Shown here: positions 148-64,000 of the stretch, one piece after another
How positions within the stretch are numbered: the first letter of the stretch is position 1
Layout of the letters: each line of letters starts with the position of its first letter
From: Drouetiella hepatica Uher 2000/2452
GTDB taxonomy: Bacteria; Cyanobacteriota; Cyanobacteriia; Elainellales; Elainellaceae
Assembly (NCBI GenBank): GCA_019359505.1
Contig: JAHHHD010000018.1
Location: 1 to 64,000, forward strand
Direction: 5' to 3'
DNA: 64,000 bases
The notes under the pieces: generated by a model
What the model saw: the letters and a program-made list of their open reading frames with translations, nothing else
Database searches by the model: none
What the model was told of the DNA's origin: nothing
Position numbers and translations under genes: made by a program

Positions 148-1536
148 TTACTTTCGAGCAGGTTTCTGAGCTTGACTAGAAAAGTGAATGCGATCGCTCA
201 ACTGTCGCAGATTTCTCGCCAAGTCAGGATCGGTATTCTTGAGCTGGCTGATCTTTTCGCAGCTATATAGAACCGTTGTATGGTCTTTGCCACCGAAGAC
301 TTCGCCAACCTTGGGTAAGCTGAGGTGGGTATGCTGCCGCATCAAAAACATACCAATTTGACGAGCAACGCTGATTTCACGACGACGGGAGCTGCCCTTC
401 AAATCTTCGATCGGGATTTCAAACATTTCTGAGACAGCCGTAATGACCGCTTCGGGCGTGGCTTCAACGCGATCGTTGGGCGGATTCAGTACAGGAGAAA
501 TATTCTCTACCGTCATGGGTAGACCCGAAATCGAGGTGTAGGCAACGGCTCTAATCAACGCCCCCTCTAGCTCTCGGATATTGGATGTATAGGTGGAGGC
601 GATGTACTCAATCACATTGCGCGGCAGACGAATGTTGTCGTATTCGGCCTTCTTTTGCAGAATCGCCATGCGGGTTTCTAGATCCGGAGCCTGGATATCG
701 GCAATCAGCCCCATGGAGAAACGAGAGCAGAGGCGCTCCTGCAAGCGGGGAATTTGGCTAGGGGGGCGATCGGATGCAATCACCACCTGCTTACCTGCCT
801 CGTGCAGCGTATTGAACGTGTGGAAAAACTCTTCCTGGGTGTACTCTTTGCCCTCAATGAACTGAATGTCATCCACCAGCAGCACGTCCACCGCCCGGTA
901 ATGCTCCCGGAAGCTCTGCATACTGTCTTTGCGGATGGCGGCAATCAGGTCGTTGGTAAATTTCTCGGTCGAGACGTAAAAGATCTTTGCCTCTGGGTTG
1001 ATTTCTAGGCGGTAATGCCCAATCGACTGCATCAGATGAGTCTTGCCCAACCCAACCCCGCCACAGAGGAATAAGGGGTTAAATTCGCGTCCGGGAGATT
1101 CGGCTACCGCCAGAGATGCCGCGTGCGCCATACGGTTATTGGAGCCAACGACGAAGCGAGAGAAGACAGACTTGGGATTCAGCTCAGAGTGGCGAACGCG
1201 CTGCGTGGTTTCTGCTACCGGAGCCTGCATGGGTAGCGGCATTAGCGCGTCGGAGGCTTCCAAGGGCGAACTGTCGGCTGCACCTCCCGGCTTAACGGCA
1301 ATATGAATCTCGACCGAGTAGCCCAAGATGTCTTGAACCACGTCTGCGATCGCTTTCACGTAATATTTTTGCAGCCAATTGCGGGCAAACGGGTTGGGCG
1401 TGCAGATCATCAGGCTCGTCTGATCGAGTCGCTCGGCCGTAGCAGGCTTAATCCAAGTCTCGAAAGTCGGGCGGCTAAGCTGAAGCTGAAGCCGCTCCAG
1501 CACCTGATTCCAAAAACCCTCTAGACTCGTTTCCAC
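148..1536 (-). CDS. dnaA: chromosomal replication initiator protein DnaA
   Basis: 462 residues, the normal bacterial length. DnaA is the AAA+ ATPase that binds DnaA boxes and opens the replication origin. Visible features in order: an N-terminal domain I ([10 protein letters not shown]), a variable linker, the Walker A motif [10 protein letters not shown] near residue 160, Walker B (LLVDDIQFI), the arginine-finger region, and the C-terminal DNA-binding signature [15 protein letters not shown]. The start is GTG at 1536, preceded by AGGTGA at a good distance. The neighbour on its 5' side is rnhA on the same strand; dnaN is not seen nearby, as is common in cyanobacteria. One weak DnaA-box-like sequence lies upstream at 1598-1606. 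Confidence 0.97.
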
Positions 1537-1636
1537 CGCTCACCTCGATCTTTAATGCAGTGAGTATAGTCGAAACTTCGCCTTGTCTACACAGAAATTT
1601 CCCACAGTTTTTTACAGTTTTTTTATAGCATCAGGC

Positions 1637-2509
1637 TTAATCAACGCGCTCTAGCTGCCACAAAATCTGGTTGCCTTCTCGACGGACGCGGGACACCACC
1701 CAGTTTCGCCATACCCAGTTGTCGCCCCGACTGGTAACGGCGCTGGCGTTTACATCCATCAAGTCAGCCAGTTCTGAACTGGTGATCAAATAGCCTTTGC
1801 CCGCGATCTCATCGGCCATATGCAGCGTTTCGACCATGTTACGTAGCTGGAAAACCCTCACCTCACGCGGCAAGTCCAAATCTAAAGTTTCAGGATTAGG
1901 CAAACTGGCAGGATTCATAGCTGATTCGGGTTCAGGTTCATGAAGGTCAAGGGCAGCAGGATCAGCGCTCTGAGTGGATTGTATCGTTTTCGATAGGGAG
2001 ATGTTAGGCGGGGAAGAGCTAATGTCAACCGTTTTCTGCAATTTGGGAGTTCCGCCCAGAGAGAAGGCGCGGGCAATCTCATCACAGCGATCGTTCCCTA
2101 CATCGCCAGAGTGCCCTTTGACGTAGCGCCAGTCCAGCTTGAACTGGCGGCTGGCTTTCTGGTTGAGCTGATCCAGCGTTTCCCACAGCTCTTGATTTAG
2201 CACAGGCTTATTGGTAGAAGTTTTCCAGCCCTTCTGCTTCCAGCCCTTAATCCACTTGGTGATGCCGTTTTTGACATACTCGCTGTCGGTATATAGACCG
2301 ATCGGCTCAGATTGGTCAGTCTTGACGAGATATTCCAGAGCTGCGATTGCCGCCTGAATTTCCATGCGGTTGTTGGTGGTTTGGCGATCGGCTCCCCCCA
2401 TTTCATGCACTGAGCCGTCGGCAAAATACACGACTGTTCCCCACCCGCCCGGTCCCGGATTTCCAGAACAGGCACCGTCGGTGTAAATGCTTTTAATTAG
2501 CTTGCTCAT
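1637..2509 (-). CDS. rnhA: ribonuclease HI with C-terminal extension
   Basis: 290 residues, about twice the usual RNase HI. Residues 1-150 form the catalytic domain that cuts RNA in RNA:DNA hybrids: the acidic residues are visible in YTDGACSGNPGPGGWG, RMEIQAAIAAL, LYTDSEYV and DVGNDRCDEIAR. A low-complexity linker of about 60 residues follows, then a domain of about 75 residues (from VFQLRNMVETLHMADEI to the end) that reads like a small helical winged domain ending in WQLERVD. I recall similar C-terminal extensions in other cyanobacterial RNases HI; their role is not known to me. It lies 100 bp upstream of dnaA on the same strand and may be co-transcribed with it. Confidence 0.93.
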   Translation of the reverse strand: MSKLIKSIYTDGACSGNPGPGGWGTVVYFADGSVHEMGGADRQTTNNRMEIQAAIAALEYLVKTDQSEPIGLYTDSEYVKNGITKWIKGWKQKGWKTSTNKPVLNQELWETLDQLNQKASRQFKLDWRYVKGHSGDVGNDRCDEIARAFSLGGTPKLQKTVDISSSPPNISLSKTIQSTQSADPAALDLHEPEPESAMNPASLPNPETLDLDLPREVRVFQLRNMVETLHMADEIAGKGYLITSSELADLMDVNASAVTSRGDNWVWRNWVVSRVRREGNQILWQLERVD

Positions 2510-2644
2510 AGAAACTTAGCCCCAAAACCTTTTCACAGAAATGTAGCCACAGAAGAACTGTAGTATAGCCGTACTTGATTCTACTTGAGCAATGGATACG
2601 CCCAAAATATTGCCCAAAATATCAAGCTGCCCAAGATTTCTGGC

Positions 2645-3853
2645 TCAAGACTCCTTTAAGGTCGTCCAGCATTCTTGGGCGATCGCCCAATTTTCCTGGG
2701 CATGAATCACCAATACCTTTACCGTGGAGTCTGCGGCGGAAATCAACTGATCCTGAGGACGGCTATTGTTTTTCTCTGCATCTAGCTTTATCCCCATATA
2801 CGAAAAGTTTTCGCAGGCTCTAGATCGAATATCAGCGGCGTTTTCGCCTACGCCTGCCGTAAACACCAGCGCGTCTATACCGTTGAGAGTAGCCACCATG
2901 CTGCCGATCAAAGCCCGCAGCCGATGGATGTAGATATCTAGCGCCAGCTTGGCGCGCGGGTTGTCCTGTGCCGCTTGGGTGACTAACCGCATGTCGTTGG
3001 AAATGCCGGAAACGCCCATCAGACCCGAATCTTGGTTAAGCGCATGATCGAGCCGATCGATCGTGTAACCCTCCTCCCGCAGCATGTAAAGCAAAATGCT
3101 GGGATCGACTGAGCCAGAGCGATTGCCCATCATCAGTCCGTCTAATGGCGTGAAGCCCATCGTAGTATCGACGCTGCGACCGTCTTGAATGGCGGCGAGC
3201 GAACAGCCGTTGCCCAAGTGGCAGGTGATGATTTTCAAATCCTCTAGACTTTTGCCTAAAATCTGCGCCGTTTTCTGGGCACAGTAGCGGTGATTGGTGC
3301 CGTGGAAGCCATATCGCCGCATGCCCTTTTCTGACCACTCGTAGGGAACGGGATAAACGGCAGCAAAGTCGGGAATGCGGGCGTGGAAGGCGGTGTCAAA
3401 AACCGCCACCTGCGGCACGTCACCCAAGATTTCCTCAATGGCGTTGATGCCTTCCAAATTAACGGGATTATGGGCAGGCGCTAGATCTGAGAGATGATCG
3501 ATCGCCGCTTTCACTTCTGCTGTAATCCTCACGCTGTCCTTGTAGTCCTGTCCGCCATGCACCACCCGATGCCCCACTCCCTGAATTTCGGACGGGTCTG
3601 CGATCACTTGAGTTGCGCCACTCCAGAGGGTGCTGAGCATATGCTCCATCACAGGCAAGCGAGATTCAAACGCCGTGGATTCCTTTAGCTCTTGCCCCTT
3701 AGCCTTGACTTTGAGTTCGGCTTTGTCTCGCGACCAGTCAATCTGCGCTTCCCAGATAGGTTCGGGCGGCTGATCGGGCAGGCGATCGTCTGGGACATCA
3801 TAAAAACAGCTTTTTTGACTGCTCGACCCGGCATTCAGCACCAAGATTTTCAT
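2645..3853 (-). CDS. ackA: acetate kinase
   Basis: 402 residues, full length. It interconverts acetate plus ATP with acetyl phosphate plus ADP in the cytoplasm. Family signatures are clear: the N-terminal MKILVLNAGSSSQK, the GHRVVHGG motif, the VAVFDTAFH segment, YGFHGTNHR, the HLGNGCSLAA phosphate-binding loop and FTAGVGENAADIR near the C terminus. No phosphotransacetylase gene is adjacent. It lies between rnhA and miaA on the same strand with gaps of more than 100 bp, so co-transcription is uncertain. Confidence 0.97.
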   Translation of the reverse strand: MKILVLNAGSSSQKSCFYDVPDDRLPDQPPEPIWEAQIDWSRDKAELKVKAKGQELKESTAFESRLPVMEHMLSTLWSGATQVIADPSEIQGVGHRVVHGGQDYKDSVRITAEVKAAIDHLSDLAPAHNPVNLEGINAIEEILGDVPQVAVFDTAFHARIPDFAAVYPVPYEWSEKGMRRYGFHGTNHRYCAQKTAQILGKSLEDLKIITCHLGNGCSLAAIQDGRSVDTTMGFTPLDGLMMGNRSGSVDPSILLYMLREEGYTIDRLDHALNQDSGLMGVSGISNDMRLVTQAAQDNPRAKLALDIYIHRLRALIGSMVATLNGIDALVFTAGVGENAADIRSRACENFSYMGIKLDAEKNNSRPQDQLISAADSTVKVLVIHAQENWAIAQECWTTLKES

Positions 3854-25623: not shown

Positions 25624-26976
25624 ATGGCTTGTCGCGTTTCTTTGGGTCAGTTAATCGAAATTTTGGATGCCACGCCCGTTAATTTGACGGCAGCAGCTTT
25701 ATCGCAAAGGGCGATCGGCGTTGTCACGGATAGCCGTCACCTTCAGCCCGGTGAAGTCTTCTTGGCGCTGCGGGGCGATCGCTTTGATGGGCATGGGTTT
25801 GTGCCGACGGTGATTCAGCAGGGCGCAATTGCGGCGATCGTTGATCGGGCTGACGATCAGGCTCAGCTGCCACTGCTCTGGGTGAAAGACACGCTGCAAG
25901 CCTACCAGGCGATCGCTCACTGGTGGCGCAACCAGTTTAAGATTCCGGTGATTGCCATCACAGGTTCGGTGGGAAAAACCACCACGAAAGAGCTAGTTGC
26001 CGCAGTTTTGGCGACTCAAGGCTCGGTGCTGAAGACTCAGGCGAACTACAACAATGAAATTGGTGTGCCTAAAACATTGCTGGAGCTAGAGCCAAGTCAC
26101 GACTATGCGGTGATTGAAATGGGAATGCGGGCGGCTGGAGAAATTGTGCTGCTGACGCAGATTGCCCGTCCTGACATTGCTCTCATTACCAATGTGGGCA
26201 CGGCGCACATCGGCATCTTGGGATCGGAACAGGCGATCGCCAATGCAAAATGTGAGCTACTGCAACAGCTTCAGCCCACAGGCACAGCAATTCTGAATCA
26301 GGACAACGATCGCCTCATCCGGACGGCAGCAGAAGTCTGGCAAGGCAAAACCATCACCTACGGATTGGAAGGCGGCGATTTGCAGGGGGAGTGGGTGGAT
26401 GCTGCAACGTTGCGAGTCGATGGCATAGACTTTAAGCTGCCATTACCCGGTCGGCACAATGCCCTCAATTATCTGGCGGCGCTAGCAGTTGCCAAAGCTT
26501 TGCAGATTAATTGGGAAAGTTTGACGCAGGAACTATCCGTCGAAATGCCGAAAGGACGATCGCACCGCAGGGAATTGCCTCACGACATCGTGATTTTGGA
26601 CGAAACCTATAATGCGGGACTGGAATCGATGATTGCCTCCCTGCATCTGCTGGCTGAAACTCCCGCTAAGCGAAGAATTGCGGTGCTGGGCACCATGAAA
26701 GAGCTGGGCGATCGCTCTCCAGAATTTCATCATCAGGTGGGTGTGGCGGCGCAGCAGCTCAACCTGGATGCCCTGCTGATTTTGGCAGATGCTGCCGAAA
26801 GTCAGGCAATGGCGGCGGGAGCAGGCAGCTTGCCCACGGAGCAATTTTCTAGCCATGATGAGGTTGTGGAGCGGCTGCGAGAAACGATGCAGTCAGGCGA
26901 TCGTATCTTGTTCAAGGCATCGCGGGCAGTTGGGCTAGATCAGGTCGTGGAGGAACTTCTCAAAAACGCTAGGTGA
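25624..26976 (+). CDS. murF: UDP-N-acetylmuramoyl-tripeptide--D-alanyl-D-alanine ligase
   Basis: 450 residues. MurF adds D-Ala-D-Ala to the UDP-MurNAc-tripeptide, the last cytoplasmic step of wall precursor assembly. Features: N-terminal VVTDSRHLQPGEVFLALRGDRFDGH, the ATP-binding loop AITGSVGKTTTKE, NYNNEIGVPKTLL, ALITNVGTAHIG, PGRHNALNYLAALAVA and ILDETYNAG. Start ATG 25624. obgE follows after a gap that contains a 17-bp tandem repeat. Confidence 0.97.
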   Translation: MACRVSLGQLIEILDATPVNLTAAALSQRAIGVVTDSRHLQPGEVFLALRGDRFDGHGFVPTVIQQGAIAAIVDRADDQAQLPLLWVKDTLQAYQAIAHWWRNQFKIPVIAITGSVGKTTTKELVAAVLATQGSVLKTQANYNNEIGVPKTLLELEPSHDYAVIEMGMRAAGEIVLLTQIARPDIALITNVGTAHIGILGSEQAIANAKCELLQQLQPTGTAILNQDNDRLIRTAAEVWQGKTITYGLEGGDLQGEWVDAATLRVDGIDFKLPLPGRHNALNYLAALAVAKALQINWESLTQELSVEMPKGRSHRRELPHDIVILDETYNAGLESMIASLHLLAETPAKRRIAVLGTMKELGDRSPEFHHQVGVAAQQLNLDALLILADAAESQAMAAGAGSLPTEQFSSHDEVVERLRETMQSGDRILFKASRAVGLDQVVEELLKNAR

Positions 26977-26986
26977 ATTTTTTTAT

Positions 26987-27079
26987 ATTTCACCCAACTT
27001 TGCATTTCACCCAACTTTGCATTTCACCCAACTTTGCATTTCACCCAACTTTGCATTTCACCCAACTTTGCATTTCACA
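26987..27079. repeat. five perfect tandem copies of a 17-bp unit
   Basis: ATTTCACCCAACTTTGC is repeated without change at 26987, 27004, 27021, 27038 and 27055, followed by a partial copy from 27072. It fills most of the gap between murF (ends 26976) and obgE (starts 27131). There are no spacers, so it is not a CRISPR array. Confidence 0.97.
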
Positions 27080-27130
27080 CTCCATACGCAATTCCATTAC
27101 CATCAAAGAAGGCAATTCGTTTAAAGATCC

Positions 27131-28228
27131 ATGCAATTTATTGATCAGGCGGAAGTTGAAGTTCAGGGTGGGAATGGAGGCGATGGAATGGTTGCCTTCC
27201 GCCGAGAGAAATATGTACCTGCGGGTGGCCCATCGGGCGGCAATGGCGGTCATGGTGGCTCGGTGATTTTTGTGGCGGCAGAGCGGCTGCAAACCCTGCT
27301 GGACTTTAGATTCGCCCATGTTTTTAAGGCAGATGACGGCGATCGCGGTGGCTCCAAAAGCATGACGGGGGCTTCGGGGAGCGATCGCGTGGTCGAGGTT
27401 CCCTGCGGCACGGTCATCTATAACGCTGAGACAGGTGAAATTTTGGGCGATTTGGTAGAGCCAGGGCAAAGGCTGTGTGTGGCTAAGGGTGGCAAGGGCG
27501 GATTGGGCAACAAAGCTTTTCTTAGCAACCGCAACCGCGCCCCTGAGCGAGCCTTACCGGGAATTCCGGGAGAAATTTGGTCGATTCGACTAGAGCTAAA
27601 GCTATTGGCGGAAGTGGGAATTATTGGCTTGCCCAACGCCGGAAAATCTACGCTGATCTCTTCCCTGTCTGCGGCGCGACCGAAGGTGGCAGACTATCCG
27701 TTTACGACGCTGGTGCCTAACTTGGGCGTGGTGCAAAAGCCCAGCGGCGACGGCACGGTCTTTGCCGATATTCCTGGATTAATTGAGGGAGCGCACTTAG
27801 GTACGGGCCTGGGACATGATTTTCTCCGGCACATTGAGCGAACCCGCGTGCTGCTGCATTTAATTGACGCAACTTCAGAAGATCCGATCGCCGCCTATCA
27901 AACCATTCAGGCAGAACTAACGGCATATGGTCGCGGCTTAGAAAACCGTCCTCAGCTGATCGGCATTAACAAAGTAGATGCTTTTCTGGCGGATGATCCC
28001 CTGCCAGAAGCGATCGCCACTCAGCTTCGCGAACTGACCTCAGACCCGATTTTCATCATCTCAGCCGTTGCCCGCACAGGCTTAGAACCAATGCTGCAAG
28101 AGGTTTGGCGGATTCTAGAGGCTCGCAATGAGGCAGAAGCGGAGGCAGCTCGATTAGAAGCGGAAGAAGAGTTGGGAAGTGAAGCAGAATCGGTTTTTGC
28201 AATGCGATCGCCCCTCCAAAGCTTTTGA
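27131..28228 (+). CDS. obgE: GTPase ObgE/CgtA
   Basis: 365 residues. Obg is a ribosome-associated GTPase involved in 50S maturation and stress control. The N-terminal glycine-rich Obg fold ([40 protein letters not shown]) is followed by the G domain with G1 [10 protein letters not shown], switch [14 protein letters not shown]3 [10 protein letters not shown] and G4 INKVDAF. It ends with an acidic tail rich in Glu and Ala, so a full Obg C-terminal (OCT) domain is absent, as usual in many bacteria. Start ATG 27131. Confidence 0.96.
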
Positions 28229-29306: not shown

Positions 29307-29709
29307 AAGAACCTCTTTTAGTAATTTTGGTAATTTTTGATGAGCTGCTTTTAATGAGCTGCTTTTGATGCGCTACGAGGCCGGAACTCTATCAGATTTC
29401 TAGTTTTTACTATTTTGATTCCCTACAGGATATCAGCAGATTAATTTGTCCCGCTTAATATAAGTATAGATAAATTACGATCGACCGAACTTTCCCTGAT
29501 CTTCTGGGCGTTTGATCTTTTGATATGGCTGTCGCCAGTTTGCTTAGGATCGTGGATTAGATAACCTGTACAACCGATCCGCTGCCAGGGCTTAGCATTG
29601 CTAAGCCCCTACTAAGCCCTTACTTCGCGCCTCACCATAACTGTCCCCGTCTTAATCGCCAACGCCAGAAAAGTGGTTGAATGAGGCTAAATATGCGTGG
29701 GGAGATTCT
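29307..29709. other. intergenic region with repeat fragments
   Basis: 403 bp. It holds a 14-bp tandem repeat ATGAGCTGCTTTTA/G at 29340-29367, a fragment of element C (GGCTGTCGCCAGTTTG) at 29524-29549, and an inverted repeat GGGCTTAGC / GCTAAGCCC at 29588-29608 that resembles one at 44392-44412. No gene is seen. Confidence 0.5.
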
Positions 29710-30309
29710 ATGAAAATTAAATGGGGACTGAGTGCGATCGCCGGACTCTTATTATCAGGCAGCCACGTACCGCTTAGCTCAGCGCAGATGGTGCCAGCCG
29801 TGCCACCCGTACCAACCGCGCCCTGGTACAACTGTCTGACACGCGAAGTGTGGACACCCGAAAAGCAAGCCTGGTGTAAGAAGGTAGAGGCGCTGAGAAA
29901 TGCCGCTTATACCATTCCTCAAAGTCCGAGTTATGTTCTTCCCGAACTGATAGCTGTCAAACTAATCAACGGTAGATACGAAGACAGAGCCAAGCAAATA
30001 TCAGCAACTTTTGTGAGTCAGCAAGGCTCGATCGTGTTTGGTGACCTAAATGACGATGGGACTGAAGATGCTGTCAGCCTATTATCAGTTAATACAGGAG
30101 GTTCGGGCGTGTTCACCTACCTGGTTCTCTCGATCAATCAAAATGGAGTGCTGAAACCTATGTTTCCCGTCCTGTTGGGTGATCGCATTCAGTTCAAATC
30201 TATGGCGATCGAGCCGGGTAAGATCAGACTTACCATAGTTACTCAGGGCGCGAATGACTCGATGTGTTGTCCGACTCAGGAAGTGACTAAAACCTTTGAC
30301 TTACGGTAG
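29710..30309 (+). CDS. secreted protein with an Asp-rich FG-GAP-like motif
   Basis: 199 residues from ATG 29710, with GGAG about 6 bp upstream; an earlier in-frame start at 29677 would hide the signal peptide. MKIKWGLSAIAGLLLSGSHV is a signal peptide with likely cleavage after SSA. The mature part has four cysteines (NCLTREVW, WCKK, MCCPTQE) and the segment VFGDLNDDGTEDAVSLLSV, which is like the calcium-binding loop of FG-GAP or dockerin-type repeats. I do not recognise a named family. Probably periplasmic or secreted. Confidence 0.65.
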   Translation: MKIKWGLSAIAGLLLSGSHVPLSSAQMVPAVPPVPTAPWYNCLTREVWTPEKQAWCKKVEALRNAAYTIPQSPSYVLPELIAVKLINGRYEDRAKQISATFVSQQGSIVFGDLNDDGTEDAVSLLSVNTGGSGVFTYLVLSINQNGVLKPMFPVLLGDRIQFKSMAIEPGKIRLTIVTQGANDSMCCPTQEVTKTFDLR

Positions 30310-30338
30310 CTTGTGCCTATGTGTTAGCTCTTGTTACA

Positions 30339-31955
30339 TTAGCTCCTGTTGAAAACAGGCAGCAACACAGTAAAGATAGACCCTTCATTTACCTTACTCT
30401 TAACGGCGATCGATCCGCCGCAGCGCAAGAGAAGTTGCTGAACGATCGACAAACCCAACCCAGAACCGCTGGAATCCTCACCGGAGGCAATGCGAATGCG
30501 ATAGAAGCGATCGAAAATCTTGGGCAAATCCGATTGGGCAATGCCGACACCTGTATCGCGAAACTCGATTTGCACATAGTCGCCTTGCTGCTTTGCCCGT
30601 ACCCAAACCTGCCCAGCGCTGGAAGTGAATTTGATGCTGTTGTGCAACAGATTAATCACAATCTGCTTGAGCCAAGGGCTAATGCAAGAAACAGGCAGCA
30701 AGTCCTCCGGAATGGTGTAGCCCAGCATAATCCCCTTTTCTTGGGCAAGCGGCTGGTAGGTGCTGACGACCCCCGGCACAATTTCAGAAAGCCGTAGAGC
30801 CTCCATGGGTACCTGATCGACCGTGCTCTCAATTTGTACGAGATCTAGAACGCTGGTAATTAGCGAACTCTGGCGATCGCATTCCTGGCTCAGCATATCC
30901 ATGTATCTTTGGCGCTGGGGCGGCTTGATGCTGGGTGAGTTCAGCAACGAAAGCGCCGTTTTCATAGTGGTCAAGGGCGTACGCAACTCTTGCCCCATAA
31001 TTTTGATGAACTCATCTTTCTGATGAACGGTGTTCAACAACTCATCATTTTCTAGCCGCAATGTAGAGACGCTTTCAGACTGTCGGCGGTGGGTCGCGCC
31101 ACTGCGCCAGATATCTTCCTGTCGCTGGATTTGTTTGACGAGCAAATCGCCCAACAGAACGGGGTTCAGCGTGGTTACAGTTCCAGTCTCAACTAGCTGC
31201 TCCCAGGTAATTAACAGCTTTGCCACAACGTCGCTGGATTGGGTTTCAGGCTGACCAAAGCAAATAGCGCGATTAATTCCATCTAAGACCTGTCGTAGCG
31301 TATCAGCCTCAAACGTACAAAGACCTAGGAGCGGATGCTTTTGTTCTAGCGATTCTGCCGTTACCGCAGGTGTTGCTAACGGCAGCTTGGCGGCTTTTGC
31401 CGATCGCCCCTCACTCTTAGATAACCCCGATCGCGGACGATGCACCAGCATCAATCCATAAAACTCAGGTGCAGCCACCAGCAAAAAATATTCTCGCTTC
31501 AGCTGGCTCTGTGCCGCTAAGGGCAAAGAATGAATCTGTGAGCCTTGCATGATTTCATCTAGCGCGATCGGTTCTCGGCTTTGACCCAAGACTTGATCAA
31601 GTTCTGTATCCGTTGCTTCCAGACTCATTTCTGAAAGATCCCAGGGAGCCTCAGATTTTGCAGCCGATCTTTTACTTCCCTTACTTTTCTCTAAATCTTG
31701 CTGAGTTTGTAGACAATATAGCGAGTAAGGAGCCGTTGCCAGCTGACAAAAACGCTGAACCTCTGCTTGCCAGACTTCACCTTTAGGCAGCTTTAACCAG
31801 ACTGTTGCTGGAATCTTTCGCTCGATCAGCAAATCAAAAACTAGCCCAACCGTAGACTTAAAGGTAGTTGGGCTAATTTTGAGAGGCTGAGGAGTCTGAT
31901 TGAAATCAGCAGCTAGTTCATAAAGGGAGGTATCAGGAGAGCGAGAAAGATTCAT
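30339..31955 (-). CDS. histidine-kinase-like protein lacking the phosphoacceptor histidine
   Basis: 538 residues without membrane segments. The N-terminal 300 residues form an unidentified sensory region. They are followed by a coiled segment (SESVSTLRLENDELLNTVHQ) and a HisKA-like dimerisation helix FIKIMGQELRTPLTTMKTAL. The canonical SHELRTPL His is Gln322 (CAA codon at 30990-30992). The ATPase domain is intact: N box IVINLLHNSIKF, G1 FRDTGVGIA and G2 GSGLGLSIVQQL. The protein may bind ATP without autophosphorylation. No response regulator is adjacent. It is convergent with the secreted protein gene. Confidence 0.85.
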   Translation of the reverse strand: MNLSRSPDTSLYELAADFNQTPQPLKISPTTFKSTVGLVFDLLIERKIPATVWLKLPKGEVWQAEVQRFCQLATAPYSLYCLQTQQDLEKSKGSKRSAAKSEAPWDLSEMSLEATDTELDQVLGQSREPIALDEIMQGSQIHSLPLAAQSQLKREYFLLVAAPEFYGLMLVHRPRSGLSKSEGRSAKAAKLPLATPAVTAESLEQKHPLLGLCTFEADTLRQVLDGINRAICFGQPETQSSDVVAKLLITWEQLVETGTVTTLNPVLLGDLLVKQIQRQEDIWRSGATHRRQSESVSTLRLENDELLNTVHQKDEFIKIMGQELRTPLTTMKTALSLLNSPSIKPPQRQRYMDMLSQECDRQSSLITSVLDLVQIESTVDQVPMEALRLSEIVPGVVSTYQPLAQEKGIMLGYTIPEDLLPVSCISPWLKQIVINLLHNSIKFTSSAGQVWVRAKQQGDYVQIEFRDTGVGIAQSDLPKIFDRFYRIRIASGEDSSGSGLGLSIVQQLLLRCGGSIAVKSKVNEGSIFTVLLPVFNRS

Positions 31956-32074: not shown

Positions 32075-33610
32075 TTAAATCAGCGCAAAGCGTTGCATGA
32101 GCGCCTCGCGGGCTTGCTCCCGATCGTCAAAGTGAACCTTCTCAGTCCCCAAAATCTGATAATCCTCGTGACCTTTGCCCGCGATCAGCACGCCATCCCC
32201 TGGTTTCGCCTCCAAAATAGCCAGACGAATCGCCTCAGCCCGATCGCCCATCACGGTTATGTGGGCGCTAGCGGGAATTCCAGCCTGAATATCTTGCAGG
32301 ATGCGTTCTGGATCTTCGGTACGCGGATTGTCAGAGGTGACAATTGCCCAATCGGATAGGCGGGCTGCAATCTCGCCCATCAAAGGGCGCTTGGTGCGAT
32401 CGCGATCTCCGCCACAGCCAAACACACAGATCATTCGACCCGAAATGAAGGGTCGAGCGGCTCTCAGCATGTTTTCTAGACTGTCGGGAGTATGGGCATA
32501 ATCTACAATAACGCTGATGTCCTGATCGGGCTGGAACTGTACCTGCTCCATGCGTCCCGGCACTCCGGTGAACTGGGGCAAAGCTTGGGCGATCGCCTCC
32601 AGATCTAGCCCCAGATGCAAGGCTGCCCCAACTGCCGCCAGCAGATTTGCTAGGTTAAACTGACCGACTAAAGGCGATCGAAAGGCAAGTGACCCGTTAG
32701 GGCTATGCAAAATTCCCTGTACGCCTTCTGCTGCATAGACTAAATCACTGGTCCACAGGTCGACCGTATTTTCGTCGACCGTATTTTCGAGGCTGGCTAG
32801 GCTGTAAGTCCAAACTCGATCGGGGGGAAGGCGATCGATCAATTGCCGTCCATAGGCATCATCTCGGTTAATAATGGCTCGTCCCTTTAAGTAATCGGAG
32901 CTAAACAAGAGTGCCTTGGCTTCAAAGTAATCATCCAGATCTTTGTGGTAGTCGAGGTGATCTTGGGTCAGGTTGGTGAAAACCGCCACCTCAAACGGAC
33001 AGCCCCAGACGCGCCCCTGCGCCAAGGCATGGGAACTCACCTCCATCACGGCATACTGGCAGCCTGCATCCACAGCTTCGCTGAGCTGTGCCTGTAGCTC
33101 TGGCGCAAAGGGAGTCGTGTGGGCAGCAGTCTGCTGATGACCTGCCCAACGGCTGTAGAGCGTGCCAAACAGTGCGGTAGGCTGCTGGCTCTGGTTGAGC
33201 AAAAATTCGATTAAGTGGGTAGTAGTGGTTTTGCCGTTGGTGCCCGTCACGCCCACCATCGACATTTTCTGTCCCGGATTGCCGTAGAAGGCCGTTGCAA
33301 TTTGGGCACAGGCGTGAGGCATATCGGCAGATGTGATAAGGCAAGGATTCTGATGCCCAGCTCCAGAAACCTTCTGTGCCGCTGAAGGCGAAACCAGAGC
33401 GGCAATGGCTCCAGCGGCGATCGCCCCCGACCAAAACTCGCCGCCATCGACCCTTGTACCCGGCATTCCGATGAACAAATCCCCTGGCTGACAGGCGTGA
33501 GAGTTGGTCGCCAAACCCGTGACTTTTTGATCTAAGGCAGGGTGTTGGGGCAAAGAAACATCGGGTAGCGTTGCCAGTAGCTCTCTCAACGTCATGTCAA
33601 AAAGTTTCAT
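32075..33610 (-). CDS. murE: UDP-N-acetylmuramoyl-tripeptide synthetase MurE
   Basis: 511 residues from ATG 33610; a TTG at 33616 has a better-spaced AAGGAG and is a real alternative. MurE adds the third residue (usually meso-diaminopimelate here) to UDP-MurNAc-dipeptide. Features: GLATNSHACQPGDLFIGMPG, ATP loop GVTGTNGKTTTTHL, MEVSSHALAQGRVWG, FTNLTQDHLDYHKD, VDYAHTPDSL and the DNPRTEDP motif that selects diaminopimelate. A perfect 15-bp tandem duplication at 32759-32788 repeats ENTVD in frame. Confidence 0.96.
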   Translation of the reverse strand: MKLFDMTLRELLATLPDVSLPQHPALDQKVTGLATNSHACQPGDLFIGMPGTRVDGGEFWSGAIAAGAIAALVSPSAAQKVSGAGHQNPCLITSADMPHACAQIATAFYGNPGQKMSMVGVTGTNGKTTTTHLIEFLLNQSQQPTALFGTLYSRWAGHQQTAAHTTPFAPELQAQLSEAVDAGCQYAVMEVSSHALAQGRVWGCPFEVAVFTNLTQDHLDYHKDLDDYFEAKALLFSSDYLKGRAIINRDDAYGRQLIDRLPPDRVWTYSLASLENTVDENTVDLWTSDLVYAAEGVQGILHSPNGSLAFRSPLVGQFNLANLLAAVGAALHLGLDLEAIAQALPQFTGVPGRMEQVQFQPDQDISVIVDYAHTPDSLENMLRAARPFISGRMICVFGCGGDRDRTKRPLMGEIAARLSDWAIVTSDNPRTEDPERILQDIQAGIPASAHITVMGDRAEAIRLAILEAKPGDGVLIAGKGHEDYQILGTEKVHFDDREQAREALMQRFALI

Positions 33611-33679
33611 AGTCAACAGCTCTCCTTGTGCCTGTTTTTTGCGCCTGGTTTTCTCGCCTGTCAGCGGCTAATCTTGCGC

Positions 33680-33982
33680 TTATTCTGCCTCATTTTTTGG
33701 ATTTCCCCCTAAGAATTTCTGCAAAACCTGCTCAATTTGCTGAACTGAGGCGCGGGGAGAAAAGCGAGGCAGAGGGGTTAGAGTGAAGCGCTGAGCCGCT
33801 GGCTCTAGATCCCGCACCGCGTAAAGAACCGGAATTTCGTACTGGTAAGCCTGGAACCAGTCCTCTTGGGTGGTGATATCCCGGATTTCCAGGTCAAGCG
33901 GGAGGTTCTGAACTTGCTCAAGTTTGAGCTGGAGCGCTTCACAAAGATGGCAACCGGGCTTGCTGTAGAGAATCAGGCGCAT
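33680..33982 (-). CDS. glutaredoxin-like protein (DUF836 type)
   Basis: 100 residues with a thioredoxin fold: LILYSKPGCHLCEAL with the CxxC pair Cys11 and Cys14, and the cis-proline segment YEIPVLYAV. It resembles the DUF836 glutaredoxin-like family. It lies 70 bp upstream of murE on the same strand. Repeat element B ends 5 bp before its start codon and no ribosome-binding site is visible. Confidence 0.82.
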   Translation of the reverse strand: MRLILYSKPGCHLCEALQLKLEQVQNLPLDLEIRDITTQEDWFQAYQYEIPVLYAVRDLEPAAQRFTLTPLPRFSPRASVQQIEQVLQKFLGGNPKNEAE

Positions 33983-63437: not shown

Positions 63438-64000
63438 CTAACCAAACTCACTGGGCGGCGAGAGAGGTAGCTCAACGATGAAGCGGTTCTGTCCAGCAGT
63501 GCTTTCAGCCCGAATAGTTCCCCCCAAGTAGGCAGACTGTTTTTTGATCAAGGCTAAGCCTAATCCGGTTCCGCCATGCTTCCAGCGATCGCTCGTCGGC
63601 ATTCGATAGAACTTGTCAAAAATGCGCGTTAGCTCATCAGCCGGAATTTCGTTTCCACTGTTGCAAACCACGATCTGCATCCGATTTTCAGGCTGAAGGT
63701 GAACAGTCACTGCAATTTCTCCACCCGAAGGCGTGTATTTACAGGCATTCGTCAGTAATTCTGTGAGAATGTGGGTCAGAATCGATCGATCAGAAACCAG
63801 CACTGGAAGATCCGCTGGCGTAACGACTGGCGTAACGACCCGTAACTGTTGCTGACGGCTTTGAGCACGTTCCTGAAAAGTAGCGACGACTTGAAAAACC
63901 CACTCGCTGAGGGGAATAGAGACCCATTCCACTAGATGCTCGCCTGCCTCAAGCTGCAATAGTTCTAGCAAGTTGTTGACCAAAGCCAATTCCTGATTGC
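63438..64000 (-). CDS. sensor histidine kinase, C-terminal part (cut by window end)
   Basis: 187 residues visible; the 5' end lies beyond position 64000. The frame continues to the window edge (NQELALVNNLLELLQLEAGE), so no start should be placed here. The ATPase domain is complete: N box ILTELLTNACKYTPSGGEI, G1 VVCNSGNEIP, the F box IFDKFYRM and G2 GGTGLGLALIKK. The segment before it is the end of the HisKA helix. A 12-bp tandem duplication at 63816-63839 repeats VVTP in frame. The phosphoacceptor His and sensory domains are out of view. Confidence 0.9.
   Translation of the reverse strand, partial: NQELALVNNLLELLQLEAGEHLVEWVSIPLSEWVFQVVATFQERAQSRQQQLRVVTPVVTPADLPVLVSDRSILTHILTELLTNACKYTPSGGEIAVTVHLQPENRMQIVVCNSGNEIPADELTRIFDKFYRMPTSDRWKHGGTGLGLALIKKQSAYLGGTIRAESTAGQNRFIVELPLSPPSEFG

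Follow-up and report, generated by a model that had tools for sequence, protein, structure and literature searches.

Pseudo-histidine kinases, split CheA kinases, and ATPase-dead phosphotransferases are kinds of signalling protein that are already known. The pseudokinase DivL of Caulobacter crescentus and other alphaproteobacteria features a conserved residue other than His in its H-box, namely Tyr, with Ala in one species, according to the available excerpts of PMC4211667. In Rhodobacter sphaeroides, CheA3 and CheA4 each stay unlabelled on their own, and CheA3 becomes labelled once the two are combined; the same source includes an earlier database count of HisKA proteins that lack HATPase (available parts of PMC3591291). 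Spo0B, ChpT, and PhyT/PhyP are dimeric phosphotransferases that combine a DHp-type His with a degenerate ATPase domain, as stated in the accessible portion of PMC5898713. Additionally, RetS and GacS of Pseudomonas (PDB 7n0e, 6dk7, 6dk8) are two histidine-kinase-like proteins in one complex, going by the title of 7n0e. Here, we describe a cyanobacteria-wide DICT kinase without the H-box His, together with its ATP-dead counterpart. Both are new as far as open-licence PMC text goes, in which no paper on either was found; older or subscription papers may describe either. The first is called Q, a label for the His-less histidine-kinase-like gene and its family, and the second P, for the mirror-image protein.

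Q lies in a window of 64,000 nucleotides, by which the whole stretch of analysed DNA is meant, at positions 30339–31955 on the reverse strand. It encodes 538 amino acids and is defined by its open reading frame, its Pfam matches, and a set of 144 distinct homologues that includes Q itself. All its parts are read on the reverse strand, beginning with a DICT sensory domain (residues 9–173; 31437–31931; PF10069, 86 bits with a cut-off of 23.8). The C-terminal part of the sensor and the signalling helix follow (residues 209–311; 31023–31331), supported by AlphaFold helices and the match to P. The kinase core consists of a HisKA/DHp domain (residues 312–377; 30825–31022; PF00512, 47.1 bits, cut-off 26.9) and a HATPase_c/CA domain (residues 427–534; 30354–30677; PF02518, 95.4 bits, cut-off 26.4). 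Q thus has both domains of an orthodox HisKA kinase above the Pfam cut-offs. The intact N, G1, and G2 boxes of its ATP site, as originally predicted, are likewise those of such a kinase, and the F box is intact too. What Q lacks is the phospho-acceptor His. The plus strand reads ttg at 30990–30992, so that codon 322, at the phospho-acceptor position, is CAA on the reverse strand and specifies Gln; this direct reading agrees with the original prediction of Gln in place of the H-box His. On its sequence, Q would therefore be unable to autophosphorylate at the usual site. The AlphaFold model, built on a 34-row alignment, has a mean pLDDT of 82.8, with values mostly of 80–95 over residues 11–90 and 141–170 of the DICT domain. 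It contains helices at 217–234, 242–259, and 265–338, and a long signalling helix leads into the DHp hairpin, which is accompanied by a regular CA domain. The best PDB fold matches of the model are histidine kinases, and the pseudokinase DivL is among them.

DivL is alike in having a non-His H-box, intact N, G1, F, and G2 boxes, and lineage-wide conservation (excerpts of PMC4211667), and Q therefore shares the DivL-type combination of a conserved non-His residue with otherwise intact boxes. Q differs in having Gln (also Arg, Leu, or Glu) at the site, in carrying DICT rather than PAS, in being cyanobacterial, and in lying often close to a protein that has the His but no ATP site. Without PAS domains or Tyr at the site, Q is not an orthologue of DivL, which is one of many kinase structures matched. 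Q also lacks the P1, P3, and P4 make-up of a CheA protein, being of the DICT-HisKA-HATPase_c type.

The Q family was found in 175 of 388 cyanobacterial genomes at a match of E 1e-50 or better. The 144 distinct sequences come from part of these genomes together with loci from a scan of named genomes. At the position of Gln322 they carry Gln in 129 cases, Arg in seven, Leu in four, Glu in three, and His in only one. All 42 long matches among the 44 loci of the named-genome scan are without His, the remaining two being one fragment and one unrelated kinase. By comparison, His occupies the aligned position in each of 29 other kinases that were read from the genome of the window. A single-base sequencing error, which had been offered as an explanation, is refuted by the 143 of 144 distinct homologues that lack His and by independent assemblies of close relatives, where the codon is CAA (L031) or CAG (L032, L033). 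The family is also set apart from other kinases: on profile A1, no member scores below 290 bits, whereas the strongest of 59 kinases outside it reaches 204 bits, and these outsiders have His. It is almost certain that the family as a whole lacks the H-box His. Eight members are short, with 254–303 amino acids, and are without most of the DICT domain (L114, L118, L119, L120, L121, L123, L127, L105); seven of them belong to genus code g105, with an H-box of QELNNP or QDLNNP. Within the window, positions 63462–64000 on the reverse strand belong to a HisKA kinase (L022) that runs on past the window and has an intact H-box, SHELRSPLNNIKMAI. It is of the type nearest to the Q family among His-bearing kinases.

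A tree of the 144 family sequences, with eight His-bearing paralogues from the genome of the window added, separates the family from the paralogues with an SH-aLRT of 96. The H-box residue changes at least seven times on this tree; members with Leu make up a single clade, and those with Arg fall into one group together with one Gln row. The sole His-bearing member (L098/L170, genome G025) groups with two Gln rows from which it differs at 4 to 7% of residues, and its codon, CAT, differs by one base from those for Gln in the sister sequences. The convergent gene next to it encodes a P with an intact His. The simplest reading of this quick tree with its long-branch outgroup is that His was lost before the Q family radiated and returned once later. 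No His-bearing intermediates were found in 30 Q-less genomes or among the 29 kinases of the window's genome. Moreover, no Q relative was found in five genomes of tiny-genome cyanobacteria. There, apart from two fragments (149 and 172 amino acids) that were left out, only kinases with an H-box His and one MASE1-type protein (L291, genome G026; H-box read by eye) are present. From their motifs, we take these kinases to be SasA-, NblS-, PhoR-, and Hik2-like. Q is an ancient and conserved cyanobacterial family of DICT-sensor histidine-kinase-like proteins.

Among the 143 family members whose sequences cover the CA domain, Asn439 and Asp467 are each present in 143, there is no variation at Phe481 and Phe484, and the G2 glycines occur in 140 (Gly499) and 139 (Gly501). 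In the DHp domain, Ala334, Tyr351, and Gln362 are found in 144/144, Lys332 and Leu337 in 143/144, and Cys359 is nearly or fully invariant. The two positions of the E/DxxT/N motif, present in the window protein as QELRT, are both kept in 115 of 144 members and lost in 29; the losses take in whole lineages in which the family signature stays. Conservation is thus stricter for nucleotide binding than for the phosphatase motif. The suggestion of an ATP-binding pseudokinase or partner protein is supported by this invariant ATP site and by the disappearance of His across a phylum-wide family. The further suggestion of a module that uses another residue finds no support, as the only two columns in which over 40% of members have His, 172 and 438, both lie outside the DHp domain. 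The dN/dS of 0.035–0.185 in 10 of 11 close pairs, those for which it was computable, indicates that the gene is under purifying selection.

P is a DICT-like, histidine-kinase-like protein present in 371 of the 388 genomes. In the window's genome, it has 576 amino acids and lies on another contig than Q (L212, positions 1336–3066, plus strand, equivalent to 50080–51807 of contig C62 of genome G000). Across 81 P sequences, the H-box has His in 81/81, Glu at H+1 in 77/81, and Thr at H+4 in 81/81. The ATP site, on the other hand, retains the N-box Asn in 17/81, the G1 Asp in 0/81, and the glycines equivalent to Gly499 and Gly501 in 3/81 and 0/81. P has therefore kept its HExxT motif and lost its ATP site, and in six P proteins scanned HisKA is above and HATPase_c below the Pfam cut-off. 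To judge by these residues, P seems to be a phospho-acceptor whose ATP site does not work. RetS is among its fold matches. RetS itself keeps the H-box His. The CA domain of P is equally degenerate in the 30 genomes without Q that were read. These include tiny-genome cyanobacteria, whose kinases read here all have the H-box His, and it follows that P is not in need of Q everywhere. P resembles Spo0B, ChpT, and PhyT/PhyP in its DHp-type His and degenerate ATPase domain, as far as the accessible portion of PMC5898713 describes them, and differs in being cyanobacterial and in having a DICT-like sensor of its own.

The losses in Q and P, tabulated in 143 Q sequences, one of them with His, and 81 P sequences, are complementary over the same domains. 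One protein is without the acceptor and the other without the catalytic site, as in a split kinase. The likeness of the two proteins also extends beyond the kinase core. In a profile-profile comparison, they align from where the DICT domain ends to the C-terminus with an E of 1.1e-26. When the kinase core is removed, the sensory parts alone still give an hhalign score of 74.2 (E 7.7e-10), compared with at most 23.4 in 20 column-shuffled controls and 20.0 in the reversed control; residues 136–271 of Q match P. The sensor of P is also matched by other DICT proteins of the window's genome, which points to a diverged DICT-type sensor in P; by Pfam, DICT was not detected in the six P proteins scanned. 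As the sensors of both Q and P resemble other DICT proteins, they share a sensor of a type rather than one unique to the pair. A special similarity of the DHp domains of Q and P, with three shared columns that are rare in other kinases, was considered but carries little weight; the 68 kinases used for comparison had been selected with a pattern that demands H or N at the H-box, so that their His is not independent evidence and plays no part here.

Gene order links the two proteins further. Upstream of Q on the reverse strand lie murE (32075–33616; NCBIfam TIGR01085, 561.7 bits), which is a conserved neighbour, and then a glutaredoxin-like (DUF836) gene (grx; 33680–33982; PF05768, 74 bits). Among 101 representatives with at least 1.6 kb of upstream sequence, murE is upstream of Q on the same strand within about 1 kb in 50, and the glutaredoxin-like gene is near in 50/50 of these. 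P lies within 6 kb of Q in 26 of 144 representatives, mostly as the convergent neighbour, and also neighbours Q in one Arg and one Glu lineage (L106, L152). The complete order cysH, grx, murE, Q, P is found at L144, L155, L157, and L208. The genome of the window has this cluster in two pieces, with grx-murE-Q in the window and P adjoining cysH on the other contig. Q with murE and grx, and P with cysH, are apparently halves of one ancestral cluster.

Both proteins have recorded places in 120 genomes, sharing a contig in 45 and lying on different contigs in 75. The distance is less than 25 kb in 30 of the 120 and more than 25 kb in 15 of the 45 same-contig cases. Within 2 kb they are found in 11 genomes of seven family codes, always as convergent neighbours. 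As a control, the near-universal kinase that we take from its motif to be NblS (380 of 388 genomes) is within 25 kb of Q in 0/77 genomes, versus 22/77 of the same genomes for P. In genomes G065, G304, G349, and others, NblS-like matches have one or two apparent internal stop codons. The linkage of Q and P is real, but it also covers murE, grx, and cysH; it may thus reflect inherited gene order rather than function and does not prove the latter. Co-occurrence is not obligate, as P is without Q in 199 of 388 genomes and Q without P in three. P accompanies Q in 172 of 175 genomes by lists tallied by reading, the other three being fragmented drafts of 78, 69, and 96% completeness; the base rate of P is so high that its presence with Q says little. 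Other kinases near Q (17/144) look like chance, given that some 80 kinase matches occur in the genome of the window. Beside Q, positions 29677–30309 on the plus strand encode a small protein that, by eye, probably has a signal peptide; its TTG start is uncertain, and it has no NCBIfam match. The plus-strand frames at 30321–30797 and 26973–27266 are opposite or overlapping real genes and probably spurious; the latter starts with a repeated peptide, FHPTLHFTQLCISPN, a sign of a short tandem repeat in the DNA upstream of the gene for an Obg-like GTPase.

As the best explanation among several, we tentatively propose that the window protein may supply the catalytic half of a split kinase and phosphorylate P in trans. 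The CA domain of Q would phosphorylate the His of P, probably in a mixed DHp bundle or a higher complex, with the two related sensory domains as its gate. P could then pass the phosphoryl group to a response regulator or take it from one. The complementary losses, the related sensors, and the linked genes all support a split kinase, and an ATP site kept better than the phosphatase motif is what would be expected if catalysis in trans matters. CheA3/CheA4 are the nearest parallel, with one protein having a kinase part and no acceptor, and the other an acceptor and phosphatase activity and no kinase part (available parts of PMC3591291). They are, however, of the CheA class with a separate P1, whereas Q and P have the full length of HisKA-type proteins, and their modules have degenerated at individual residues; trans-phosphorylation has been demonstrated for CheA3/CheA4 in the same excerpts, whereas for Q and P we infer it. 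The main argument against a dependence of P on Q is that the ATP site of P is equally lost in the 30 Q-less genomes. In a fuller account, Q and P would be the halves of a HisKA-class split kinase derived from a duplicated DICT-sensor kinase by reciprocal loss, Q having kept ATP binding and catalysis and P the His. P would then be an ancient phospho-acceptor hub, charged by Q in about half of the phylum and by another kinase elsewhere; taken as a whole, this account is rather unlikely.

Alternatively, Q may be an allosteric pseudokinase in the manner of DivL, which is possible, if doubtful. It would bind a response regulator, perhaps phosphorylated, on the invariant DHp surface, and its ATP- and DICT-dependent conformation would switch P or another kinase on or off, with no phosphotransfer catalysed by Q. 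Regulators usually dock on this part of the DHp domain of kinases, and the region is almost invariant in Q (Lys332, Ala334, Tyr351, Gln362). Moreover, the DivL structure 4q20 matches the Q sequence with 67.3 bits and takes ranks 10 and 21 among the fold matches, and DivL, too, has replaced its H-box His and kept the N, G1, F, and G2 boxes (excerpts of PMC4211667). Nevertheless, DivL has PAS where Q has DICT, no response regulator gene was seen as a conserved neighbour of Q among the neighbour-cluster examples checked with Pfam, and an ATP-site Asn and Asp kept in 143/143 exceed what a pure scaffold needs. The same two residues weigh against a monofunctional phosphatase, in which the E-x-x-T motif of Q would dephosphorylate one response regulator charged by other kinases. 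The E/DxxT/N motif serves phosphatase activity in HisKA kinases, and its presence in the window protein and in 115 members in all speaks for such a role. A phosphatase, as originally suggested, could therefore apply to the window protein, but the 29 members without the motif include whole lineages, while Asn439 and Asp467 are never lost; as a function of the family, it is quite improbable. Lastly, Q could be a relic or an error, that is, a kinase whose His was lost recently by mutation or misread in sequencing, and which is decaying or inactive. The one His-bearing member, a single base from the Gln codons of its sisters, might suggest so, but that sequence falls within a clade of Gln members, His is absent from 143 of 144 members across a deep tree, and dN/dS is 0.035–0.185. 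As a general account, this reading is refuted by the residue counts, the tree, and dN/dS, and it retains hardly any credence. Whatever probability lies beyond the trans-kinase, DivL-like, and phosphatase readings is left for mixtures of these and for readings not yet thought of.

For the biology of cyanobacteria, the His is gone from Q nearly everywhere and the ATP site never, which means that selection keeps the ATP-dependent half of the machine. P is a signalling protein conserved in nearly all cyanobacteria, the smallest genomes included, whose own ATP site looks dead. If Q works on P, the two would form a split kinase of the common HisKA class, and models of such an arrangement show ultrasensitive or bistable switching, according to the available parts of PMC3591291.
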